Part shown: positions 6,434-9,432 of the stretch, piece after piece
Layout: every line of letters starts with the position of its first letter
Numbering within the stretch: the first letter of the stretch is position 1
Notes under the pieces: generated by a model
What the model saw: only the letters and a program-made list of their open reading frames with translations
What the model was told of the DNA's origin: nothing
Databases searched by the model: none
Position numbers and translations under genes: made by a program
Source: Methanobacteriota archaeon
Lineage (GTDB): Archaea > Thermoplasmatota > Poseidoniia > Poseidoniales > Poseidoniaceae
NCBI GenBank assembly: GCA_002692465.1
Contig: NZKH01000028.1
Location: 6,787-39,238, forward strand
Length of the DNA stretch: 32,452 nt
Reading direction: 5' to 3'

Positions 6434-6511
6434 ATTATGTCCATGGGGGAATTAAATAAGATGTTGTTGTTTATTTTTAACGCCAAATTCATAGGTTTAT
6501 ACTTCCCCCGC

Positions 6512-6853
6512 ATGTCACAGGGGATTGTGTTGGCAGCAAAAAAATCTAAATCAAAAGATAATAAAAAATCAGCAGCAGCTAAGAAAGCAGCAGCAACAAG
6601 AAAGGCAAATGCAGCTAAAAAAGCGGCAGCAGAAGCGGCTGCAAAAGCAAAGAAAGCAGCAGCAGCTAAGAAAGCGGCAGCAACAAGAAAGGCAAATGCA
6701 GCAAAGAAGGCAGCAGCAGCAAAGAAAGCAGCAGCAGCAAAGAAAGCAGCAGCAGCAAAGAAAAAAGCAACAGCTTTGGCTAAGAAAGGAATCATTAAAG
6801 CACCGAAATCAGTTAGTGATATGCTTTCAAGAATTGAGAAGAATAAAAGATAA
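6512..6853 (+). CDS. Histone H1-like Lys/Ala-rich repeat protein
   Basis: A 113-residue basic protein made mostly of AAKKAAA units. The start MSQGIVLAAKKSKSK is at an ATG; a longer reading from 6437 is possible but less like the rest. Residues 20-90 are low-complexity repeats of AAKKAAA and AATRKANAAKKAAA, with Glu only once. The C-terminus is different and ordered-looking: GIIKAPKSVSDMLSRIEKNKR. Composition matches the C-terminal tail of eukaryotic linker histone H1 and bacterial H1-like proteins (Hc1, AlgP), which neutralise and compact DNA. A nucleoid role is therefore likely but inferred from composition alone. The Cys3His protein gene follows 37 bp downstream on the same strand. The repetitive codons leave other frames open too; those are artefacts. 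Confidence 0.8.
   Translation: MSQGIVLAAKKSKSKDNKKSAAAKKAAATRKANAAKKAAAEAAAKAKKAAAAKKAAATRKANAAKKAAAAKKAAAAKKAAAAKKKATALAKKGIIKAPKSVSDMLSRIEKNKR
6571..6756 (+). repeat. In-frame tandem repeats in the H1-like gene
   Basis: A 45-bp unit occurs at 6571-6615 and 6658-6702 with one mismatch, a shift of 87 bp or 29 codons. Three 18-bp units follow head to tail at 6703-6720, 6721-6738 and 6739-6756 (AAAGAAAGCAGCAGCAGC, with one variant base in the first). All keep the reading frame, so repeat number can change by slippage without truncating the protein. Confidence 0.85.
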
Positions 6854-7071: not shown

Positions 7072-8085
7072 TTATTCATCAATTTTTTCCAAATTACTTT
7101 GTGCTCTAGTATATACTTCTCTCAGAGTTTGATCATTAATTTCAAGATAAACTCTAGTTGTTTGAATATTAGCGTGCCCAAGTAATCGTTGGATAGAGAC
7201 AATGTCCGCCCCTCTTTCTAATAATCCAGTAGCAAAATTATGTCTTAGTACATGTGGTGACAATCTTTTTTTAGAAATATTAGCATCTTCAGCGATTCTA
7301 TCCATTAATTTTTGAATTCCTCTTGGTGTAATTCTTTTTCCTTTTGAGTTAACTAATAATGCATCTTCATCAACTAAAATAATTTTATTCCTTAAAGTTA
7401 GCCAACAATTTAGAACATCTGCGGTTTGTTCTGTGTAAAGAACCATACGATCCTTATTTCCCTTTCCACCAACAACTCTTGCACTTTTATCTTTAAAATC
7501 AACATCATGAATATTTAATCCACAGAGTTCACTAACTCTTATTCCCGTTTCCAAAAGCAACGTGACAATTAGGTGCGCAAGGGGGTTTTCACTGTTAAAT
7601 GCTGCAGTTCGAACGCTTTTCAACTCATTATTTGAAAGGACTTTAGGAATTTGTTTACCTTTTCTAGGTCTAATAATATGTTCAGGTACATGATGTCCAA
7701 CCCATTCAATTAAGTGACTTATTGCTGCTAAACGTGCATTTACCGTAGATGCTTTAAATTCATTAATTGATTGTAACCAGATATCTAATCTTCCATTTTC
7801 TGGATTAACATATGAATTCAAATCTTTTACAGTTAGATTTTCTAAATATTCATTTGACATTTCTTCTTCGTTTGAAGAAATTTTTGTTTTTAGAAATTTT
7901 TTCACTGCACATAAATAAGATTTGATAGTATTGTTACTTTTCCCCTCAGTCTTTAATTGTTGAATCCAGCAGGGATGCCAAGAAACATGAGATAAACGAA
8001 TTATTCTATCGGGTAAAATTTTTTCATTAAGCTTTTTTTGAATCTCCAACAATTGTTTTAATTCTTGATTATAATCCAAAGACAT
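7072..8085 (-). CDS. xerA: Tyrosine recombinase, XerC/XerD/XerA type
   Basis: A 337-residue site-specific recombinase. Residues 35-130 are the SAM-like core-binding domain (TIKSYLCAVKKFLK and following). Residues 150-325 are the catalytic domain, with all active-site residues visible: Arg183 in TGIRVSELCGL, Lys208 in GGKGNKDR, His278 and Arg281 in SPHVLRHNFATG, His304 in LLGHANIQTT and the nucleophile Tyr313 in RVYLEI. It is close to chromosomal Xer proteins, which resolve chromosome dimers at dif; an archaeal XerA is the simplest reading. No excisionase, transposase or flanking attachment repeats were seen, so an integron or phage origin is not supported. The leader (8086-8196) is unusually rich in hairpins and contains a GAGGGG ribosome-binding site. 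Confidence 0.9.
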   Translation of the reverse strand: MSLDYNQELKQLLEIQKKLNEKILPDRIIRLSHVSWHPCWIQQLKTEGKSNNTIKSYLCAVKKFLKTKISSNEEEMSNEYLENLTVKDLNSYVNPENGRLDIWLQSINEFKASTVNARLAAISHLIEWVGHHVPEHIIRPRKGKQIPKVLSNNELKSVRTAAFNSENPLAHLIVTLLLETGIRVSELCGLNIHDVDFKDKSARVVGGKGNKDRMVLYTEQTADVLNCWLTLRNKIILVDEDALLVNSKGKRITPRGIQKLMDRIAEDANISKKRLSPHVLRHNFATGLLERGADIVSIQRLLGHANIQTTRVYLEINDQTLREVYTRAQSNLEKIDE

Positions 8086-8101
8086 TGCATCCCCTCTTTT
8101 T

Positions 8102-8178
8102 GTCGCTAAGCGACTGCATCCCTGCCTAAAAGGCAGATAGCCTCAGACATCTTAGGCTTTGAATGCTTCGTGTCATTC
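8102..8178. other. Cluster of four hairpins upstream of the Xer gene
   Basis: The gap 8086-8196 carries four inverted repeats in 77 bp: GTCGC-TAA-GCGAC (8102-8114), CTGCCT-AAA-AGGCAG (8122-8136), GCCTCAG-ACAT-CTTAGGC (8140-8157, one mismatch) and GAATG-8 nt-CATTC (8161-8178). TGCATCCC is repeated at 8086-8093 and 8115-8122. Read on the minus strand, the cluster lies between a TTTAAACG-like promoter (about 8187-8194) and the GAGGGG site of the Xer gene. The strand-specific GCAUUC of hairpin 4 could instead pair with either GGAUGC copy, one of which touches the ribosome-binding site. It may be a regulatory leader, an independent small RNA or a recombinase target. Confidence 0.55.
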
Positions 8179-8196
8179 GATTAAAAAACGTTTAAA

Positions 8197-9432
8197 TCAA
8201 TATGTTTCAAATTTTTCCGAATCTTTAAATTTAGATTCCATTTTTCGATTATTATATATTTCAAAGTTTAATATTTCTTTTAAATTTAATCTTAGTTGAT
8301 GTAAATCACCGTAAAAAATCAATATGTCATTGTATCTTAATTTCAAATCATCTTTTGGTGCCCAGACTAATTGACGTGATCTTGATAATGCAAAAGCACT
8401 AGTTCCAAAATCACTGAATAAATCTCCAATTCTTTCACCAACTAACCACGGGTGATTAACTAAATGTATGGGCAAGATTCCATGACCTGGAACAGTTAAA
8501 AGTAATTGATCCATACTTATTTTTACAAATTTTGCATCTTCTTCTAAAAAATCAATTATTTTTTCAGCAACATTAACTCCTGAAGCCATCTCTATACCTT
8601 CTAAACCAGGAGATGAATTTATTTCAAGTACCAATGGGCCATTTTTCCCTTCCAAAAGGTCAACTCCAGCAATGTTTAATCCTAACACTCTTGCGGCTCT
8701 AAGTGCGATTTCTTCATATTCAGGAGTTAATTCAACAGATTCAACAGTTCCATTAAGATGGAAATTTGATCGGAACTCTTTACCTCTTGCTCTTCTTCTC
8801 ATACACGCTACAACTTTGTCACCAACTACTAATGCTCTAATATCGGTTCCATGACTTTCATGAATATATTGTTGAATCAAAACTTCATGGTTTAAATCTA
8901 ATAATGCAGAAACAAGACCAATAGCATCTTTGTATAGGTGTCTAAGGTAAACTCCACGTCCTTGAGTTCCTTCTGAAACTTTTATTACGACTGGAAGCCC
9001 TCCTACAATATCAATTGCTCTTTCGACATCATTAATATTTCGAACATAGGCAGTTTTTGGAATAGGAACATTATTTCTACCTAGTATTTGTGCAGCTAAT
9101 AATTTGTTTCTACTTTGTCTAATTCCTTCACCAGAATTTGCAGAATACACATCTAATTGTTCAAATTGTTTCAATAATGCAACACCATGTGATGTAATTG
9201 AATGTCCAATTCGTGGTAGAACAGCATCAAAATTTACTTGGTTTCCCTTGTGTAATATTTGTGGTGAATCTTTACTTATTGACAATGTAAATTGTAGTGG
9301 ATCTAAGATTGTAGTATGAATGCCTTTTTTCAAGGCTTCTTCTTGTAATCTTCTAGTGCTGTATAATCTTGGCCCTCTAGAAAGAATTGCTAATCGCAAA
9401 GTAACCCCACCCAGACAATCTGAACAAACCAT
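8197..9432 (-). CDS. rimK: RimK-type ATP-grasp ligase with C-terminal RCK_C-like domain
   Basis: A 411-residue protein. Residues 13-300 match RimK, the ATP-grasp ligase that adds glutamate to the C-terminus of ribosomal protein S6: RLAILSRGPRLYSTRRL, FDAVLPRIG, VVIKVSEGTQGRGV (ATP-binding loop), DIRALVVGDKVVACMRR, FRSNFHLNG and VLEINSSPGLEGIE (Mg-binding Glu/Asn). Archaeal relatives include LysX, MptN and CofF, so the amino-acid acceptor is uncertain. Residues 311-390 are extra and resemble a TrkA_C/RCK_C domain (LVGERIGDLFSDFG, later DDLKLRYNDILIFYGD), a ligand-binding module of K+ channels. ATG at 9432 is given as the start, but a TTG at 9399 (preceded by GGTGGGG) aligns exactly with the usual RimK N-terminus and may be the real one. 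A T-run (GTTTTTTAAT on the minus strand) follows the stop. Confidence 0.9.
   Translation of the reverse strand: MVCSDCLGGVTLRLAILSRGPRLYSTRRLQEEALKKGIHTTILDPLQFTLSISKDSPQILHKGNQVNFDAVLPRIGHSITSHGVALLKQFEQLDVYSANSGEGIRQSRNKLLAAQILGRNNVPIPKTAYVRNINDVERAIDIVGGLPVVIKVSEGTQGRGVYLRHLYKDAIGLVSALLDLNHEVLIQQYIHESHGTDIRALVVGDKVVACMRRRARGKEFRSNFHLNGTVESVELTPEYEEIALRAARVLGLNIAGVDLLEGKNGPLVLEINSSPGLEGIEMASGVNVAEKIIDFLEEDAKFVKISMDQLLLTVPGHGILPIHLVNHPWLVGERIGDLFSDFGTSAFALSRSRQLVWAPKDDLKLRYNDILIFYGDLHQLRLNLKEILNFEIYNNRKMESKFKDSEKFETY

Follow-up and report, generated by a model that had tools for sequence, protein, structure and literature searches.

A conserved hairpin leader of xerA in Poseidoniales archaea, a candidate translational control element

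The leader of the recombinase gene xerA in the window (the whole 32,452-nt stretch of DNA that was analyzed) is most likely a translational control element restricted to that gene. A probability of about 0.6 was assigned to the reading that it is a cis-acting, structured 5' untranslated RNA of the xerA mRNA, in which the binding of a factor via GGGAUGCA sets the use of the Shine-Dalgarno (SD) sequence, autogenous control being the simplest form. The basis is sequence comparison: the conservation of the leader, its compensated hairpins, its exclusive link to xerA and its adjacency to the SD sequence. We infer from there the transcript start, the translational mode, the binding of a factor and autogenous control. 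The relatives compared were metagenome-derived genomes, and they indicate that the window probably belongs to a Poseidoniales (Marine Group II) archaeon.

Results

A sequence-only reading of the window had reported four inverted repeats in this leader, here called hairpins 1 to 4 (8102-8114, 8122-8136, 8140-8157 and 8161-8178, respectively), and all of them are in the sequence. The features of the locus, in window coordinates, are as follows.

8197-9432, minus strand: RimK-like gene, on the other flank of the hairpin stretch (8086-8196)
8164-8170, minus strand: BRE-like element CGAAGCA, just 5' of the TATA box
8158-8163, minus strand: TATA box TTCAAA (consensus in the order, TTSAWA), which most xerA leaders also have, 29-30 nt ahead of P2
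8134, minus strand: predicted transcription start, a G that is the first base of P2, 29 nt past the first T of the TATA box; placed by spacing
8124-8134, minus strand: hairpin P2 (GCC-UUUUA-GGC), the core of hairpin 2; found order-wide, with compensatory changes
8115-8122, minus strand: nearly invariant GGGAUGCA between P2 and P3; GGGAUGC is present in almost all leaders read order-wide
8102-8114, minus strand: hairpin P3 (GUCGC-UUA-GCGAC), the same as hairpin 1; two-sided changes at 5 of 5 modelled pairs
8091-8096, minus strand: SD sequence GAGGGG, a few nt 3' of P3
7072-8085, minus strand: xerA, the tyrosine recombinase gene 3' of the leader, with matches to NF040815 (recomb_XerA_Arch) and PF00589

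The XerA protein scored 222.7 bits against NF040815, above the equivalog cut-off of 220, and matched PF00589 with E = 7e-39. The gene is present in 152 of the 171 genomes of the window's family. The gene on the 5' side of the leader varies from genus to genus, and thus the element goes with xerA.

About 110 of the family's xerA loci were read for their leaders. On the xerA strand, the order of parts common to them is a box (either GAAGCATTCAA or a variant of it with TTSAW at its end), approximately 22 nt of variable sequence and nearly constant length, P2, GGGATGCA(C), P3, the SD sequence and the start codon. The P2 stem has 3-5 bp across the order and just 3 bp in the window's genus. The unpaired segment may be extended by a C, as GGGAUGCA(C), and its variants are GGGAUUGC in genus g15, GGGAAUGG in g17 and GGGAUGUA in part of g4. 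In the congener locus L005, a C-G pair of P3 is replaced by U-A. The SD sequence (the 16S 3' end is GGATCACCTCCT) touches the 3' arm of P3 or runs into it in the majority of leaders in most genera, the gap being about -2 to +5 nt. A third hairpin, P4 (GGCG-GUGA(A)-CGCC), holds the SD sequence in most genera of the window's family. The window's genus, g10, g11 and the sister family have no P4, which means that sequestration of the SD sequence by this hairpin is not the general mechanism; judged by this distribution, P4 is a family-level addition.

The pairing was assessed in alignments of differing construction. Stem positions had been picked partly by pairing in a curated alignment, a bias that was lessened by aligning A1 and A3 without structure. 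In A1 (39 sequences, aligned with MAFFT), 96.5% of the cells in the three hairpins were paired, and this value fell to 30-45% when the partners were slid by 1-3 columns. Changes on both sides were found at 9 of 14 pairs in A1, compared to 3.8 in shuffles, and the two-sided cells numbered 64, compared to 19. The wider alignment A3, which was used for P2 alone, gave the same picture for paired cells and covariation score, but not for the number of pairs changed. In A2, a model-fitted alignment of 62 distinct sequences that is biased towards structure, 13 of the 14 pairs had two-sided changes. In P4 there is little variation, only two pairs having changed on both sides, each in one or two sequences. 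The loops were counted after the longest stem had been chosen with no loop bonus. YNMG and GNRA are families of RNA loops; tetraloops of these types close 105 of 116 P2 and 93 of 106 P3 hairpins (about 90%, vs. about 9% by chance). On these alignments, the pairing in the leader is kept by compensatory changes, the mark of a secondary structure. The check that the sequence-only reading had set, namely conservation of the stems with compensatory changes in relatives, was thus carried out, and two of its four hairpins passed.

Those two are hairpin 1, kept order-wide as P3, and hairpin 2, kept as P2. Conservation does not extend to hairpins 3 and 4, which fall in promoter DNA: two of the five members of the genus have a disrupted hairpin 3, and it does not occur elsewhere; hairpin 4 has a disrupted stem in two or more of the five, its GAAGCATTC half alone being conserved, as a promoter box. 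The TATA-like element had been placed ahead of all four hairpins; it sits among them, as GAAGCATTCAAA in the region of hairpins 3 and 4 is the BRE/TATA pair. A direct repeat of TGCATCCC had also been described around hairpin 1. Its copy between the hairpins is nearly invariant, and the copy adjoining the start codon reads GGGATAAG, GGGATGAG, GGGATACT or GGGATGTT in the four congeners; it is not conserved as a repeat, even within the genus. When folded, the 111-nt stretch was somewhat more stable than its shuffles, with z = -2.1 for the xerA strand and z = -2.7 for the opposite strand. The window's RNA from the predicted start at 8134 is not unusually stable when folded alone (z = -0.4), and the case therefore rests on comparison.

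The promoter statistics cover 400 kb of G034, a genome in a single contig, and about 350 kb of G000. In the former (L163-L182, G034:C1:1-400000), TTSAWA peaks on the sense strand near -30 of start codons (16 sense vs. 2 antisense occurrences), and TTCAAA and TTGATAT are among the words enriched upstream of genes. In these two forms, TTSAWA seems to serve as the TATA box of the order's leaderless genes. The xerA leaders have the same geometry: the distance from the box to the first base of a 4-bp P2 is 29-30 nt in 97 of 123 leaders and 26-28 nt in 22 more; the latter group takes in the window's genus and some of the sister family, in which the reference arm is shifted by at least one base. A pyrimidine/G step is found at the predicted start in 96 of the 123. 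GAAGCA stands at a fixed spacing in each of the five members of the genus and in the majority of sister-family genera. By the spacing of leaderless genes, the xerA transcript is thus predicted to start with P2. With that start, hairpins 3 and 4 would be promoter DNA, probably absent from the RNA, and GCAUUC of hairpin 4 could not pair with GGAUGC in the mRNA. The alternative fold that had been proposed from this pairing also fails on comparison, since GCAUUC, which is promoter sequence 5' of the predicted start, becomes GGCUUC, GGUUUG, CCUUGA or GCGUUC and diverges in most genera while GGGAUGC stays constant. In the AT-rich genome of the window, the upstream-enriched words are different (TTTTAA, TTTAAA).

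The distribution of the element was examined with a covariance model, R1, run on 167 family genomes. Exactly one match per genome was obtained in 131 of these, always just 5' of xerA and on the same strand; for 129 of the 131 matches, a listed xerA match follows at a distance of 16-96 nt, and the remaining two stand before pieces of xerA truncated at the end of a contig. R1 had no match in 19 family genomes that lack xerA. Against the window itself, the model scored 13.5 bits (E = 0.34). The window's leader is, on comparative grounds, a divergent member, placed by its gene, its position, its promoter spacing and the TTTAGGCAGGGATGCAGTCG core common to the genus (four congeners). In the sister family, R1 gave 15 weak matches (E of about 1e-4 to 1e-3), all 15 upstream of xerA. 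The pattern GAAGCATTCAA-N28-45-GGGATGC occurred in 86 of 293 genomes of the order, four of the window's genus and 82 of the sister family, and the reversed-pattern control in the order's genomes returned 0. Genera g12, g15 and g17 are without the exact pattern and have the recognizable variants GGGATGCAC, GGGATTGC and GGGAATGG between two hairpins. Nothing similar was seen in the upstream regions of six xerA loci from other classes within the phylum. The leader element is, as far as these searches indicate, present across the order Poseidoniales, the sister family included. A scan of the window and 18 related loci from several genera against Rfam 15 gave no match above a gathering score; U1_yeast and MEG8_1, which fell below theirs, were dismissed as chance.

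Discussion

A translational switch had been among the suggestions made from the window's sequence, and the leader, a conserved and compensated RNA next to a ribosome-binding site, is best read as a translational control element. In the mechanism proposed here, transcription would begin at the first base of P2, such that the 5' end of the mRNA is a hairpin. It would be followed by the single-stranded, almost invariant GGGAUGCA(C), then by P3, with the SD sequence touching it; most genera of the window's family would add P4, which contains the SD sequence. An unpaired stretch that hardly varies, set between two hairpins that do, looks like the recognition site of a trans-acting factor. Such a factor (XerA, another protein or a ligand) would bind the module through GGGAUGCA and thereby decide whether the SD sequence is accessible to the ribosome. 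Because the SD sequence abuts or overlaps P3, stabilization of P2-GGGAUGCA-P3 would hinder ribosome binding. In the autogenous form, XerA would limit its own synthesis. The occurrence of one copy per genome, at xerA only, in more than 200 genomes makes autogenous control the simplest form, as a pattern and not as proof. The full proposal, that a DNA enzyme, XerA, restrains its own production by binding to the GGGAUGCA leader of its mRNA and that this constitutes a new archaeal class of regulatory RNA, is a doubtful one at present. If true, organisms that lack FtsK would control chromosome-dimer resolution at the RNA level.

The accessibility of the SD sequence could also be governed by a small molecule, with GGGAUGCA and the two hairpins forming a ligand pocket. 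The small, compact core, its strictly invariant sequence and the adjacent SD sequence would suit such a riboswitch. However, it is usual for metabolite riboswitches to regulate several genes in the same pathway, and here a single gene, a recombinase, is associated in more than 200 genomes; neither a pseudoknot nor a multistem junction was found in the leader, nor was a relative in Rfam, and we regard a riboswitch as unlikely. It is similarly improbable that the 5'-terminal hairpin and leader serve only to protect the mRNA from 5'-to-3' decay or to prevent leaderless initiation. The coincidence of the predicted transcript start with the first base of P2, in an order where promoters with leaderless spacing are common, fits that role, which leaves GGGAUGCA, the position of P3 beside the SD sequence and the restriction to xerA unexplained. 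Still less probable is control by the AUG within GGGAUGCA, which would open a short frame acting on xerA by coupling or decoy initiation. This AUG is present in 122 of 123 leaders scored, and many of the frames end at a UGA in the P4 loop or at an ATGA on the xerA start. Yet the frame is unconserved (it stops within 20 codons in 80 leaders and later or not at all in 42), the changes in P3 length are not multiples of three, g15 has GGGAUUGC, and the GGG and the hairpins would have no explanation.

Both of the remaining readings are very improbable. A compact, conserved element with its own promoter might be an independent small RNA between two genes, as had been suggested from the window; nothing points to one, as the element is always 5' of xerA on the same strand and continues straight into the SD sequence and start codon, with no terminator seen. 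The leader might otherwise work as DNA, either as a XerA target with folded single strands (also an earlier suggestion) or as an operator, given that XerA binds DNA and that the hairpins could extrude. Archaeal dif and other Xer sites consist of inverted 11-15 bp repeats separated by a 4-10 bp spacer (PMC2958812). The leader shares with them the connection to XerA; when the alignments were read, conserved inverted 11-bp arms as in dif were absent, and the stem sequences vary with compensation. The retention of RNA-type tetraloops also argues against a folded DNA site. As for an operator of a regulon, GGGATGCAC is not enriched elsewhere in G034 (5 copies vs. 3.4 expected in 400 kb), and within the portion of the window's genome that was sampled, the copies of GGGATGCA fall in open frames.

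Several pairing partners for the leader were considered and rejected. GGGAUGC has a 10-nt complement in the window's xerA coding region, at 7969-7978. Over 117 leaders, the longest complement in the first part of the coding region averaged 4.34 nt, compared to 4.48 nt for shuffled motifs. The 16S and 23S rRNAs of G034 contain no 7-nt complement, the matches being confined to the flanks or the opposite strand. Anti-SD pairing by the 5' end, which the fold of the window offers, is not retained in the congener loci L002 and L003, as judged by eye.

The leader was filed as a new family among conserved cis-acting mRNA leaders. By gene, the nearest known elements are the bacterial xerDC motif and STAXI. 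The xerDC RNA motif is a candidate cis-regulatory RNA upstream of bacterial xerC/xerD. It resembles the present element in being a candidate cis-acting RNA before a Xer-type tyrosine recombinase gene; unlike it, the motif is bacterial, and the Poseidoniales leader (window and 18 loci) matches no Rfam 15 family. Only a few conserved structured leaders have been described from archaea. STAXI is a pseudoknot repeated in tandem close to many types of genes, possibly acting as single-stranded DNA (Weinberg et al. 2010, PMC2864571). It is likewise a structured motif near integrase and other DNA-handling genes, those of XerDC integrases included (PMC2864571), whereas the xerA leader is a single copy with simple hairpins, one gene and RNA-type loops. 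Autogenous leaders, e.g. those of ribosomal proteins (PMC7247131), are also structured, located only before the controlled gene and placed beside the ribosome-binding site; the product of xerA, in contrast, is a DNA recombinase whose self-binding is a proposal. A search of a library of papers found none on Poseidoniales and xerA, nor one linking RNA to xerA in these archaea.

A whole order of abundant surface-ocean archaea thus keeps a structured leader on a single gene. Archaea lack FtsK, and the control of their chromosome-dimer resolution by XerA is for that reason an open question (PMC8371274); an element that sets the XerA level would offer a direct handle on it. Metatranscriptomes can be used to test what the analysis provides, namely a covariance model, a promoter consensus and a predicted start of the mRNA.

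Some minor observations were made at these loci. In L110, L030 and L153, the AUG of GGGAUGC and xerA share a reading frame with no intervening stop, and the protein could begin inside the leader there. A second xerA copy in a genome of the window's family (L037, G165:C16) has a leader, CCCTGTAAGGGGATGGGAATGGGTGTCACC, that is nearly identical to that of the sister-family genus g17 (L239, G179:C5); either the gene and its leader moved between families or the 4.1-kb contig is contamination. In the window, a 138-aa lysine/alanine-repeat protein with no Pfam match (6437-6853; a histone H1-like tail with AAKKAAA repeats) is encoded convergently to xerA. The product of 8197-9432 is a RimK-family ATP-grasp ligase with a weak C-terminal match to TrkA_C, below the Pfam cut-off, which would be an unusual pairing of domains.
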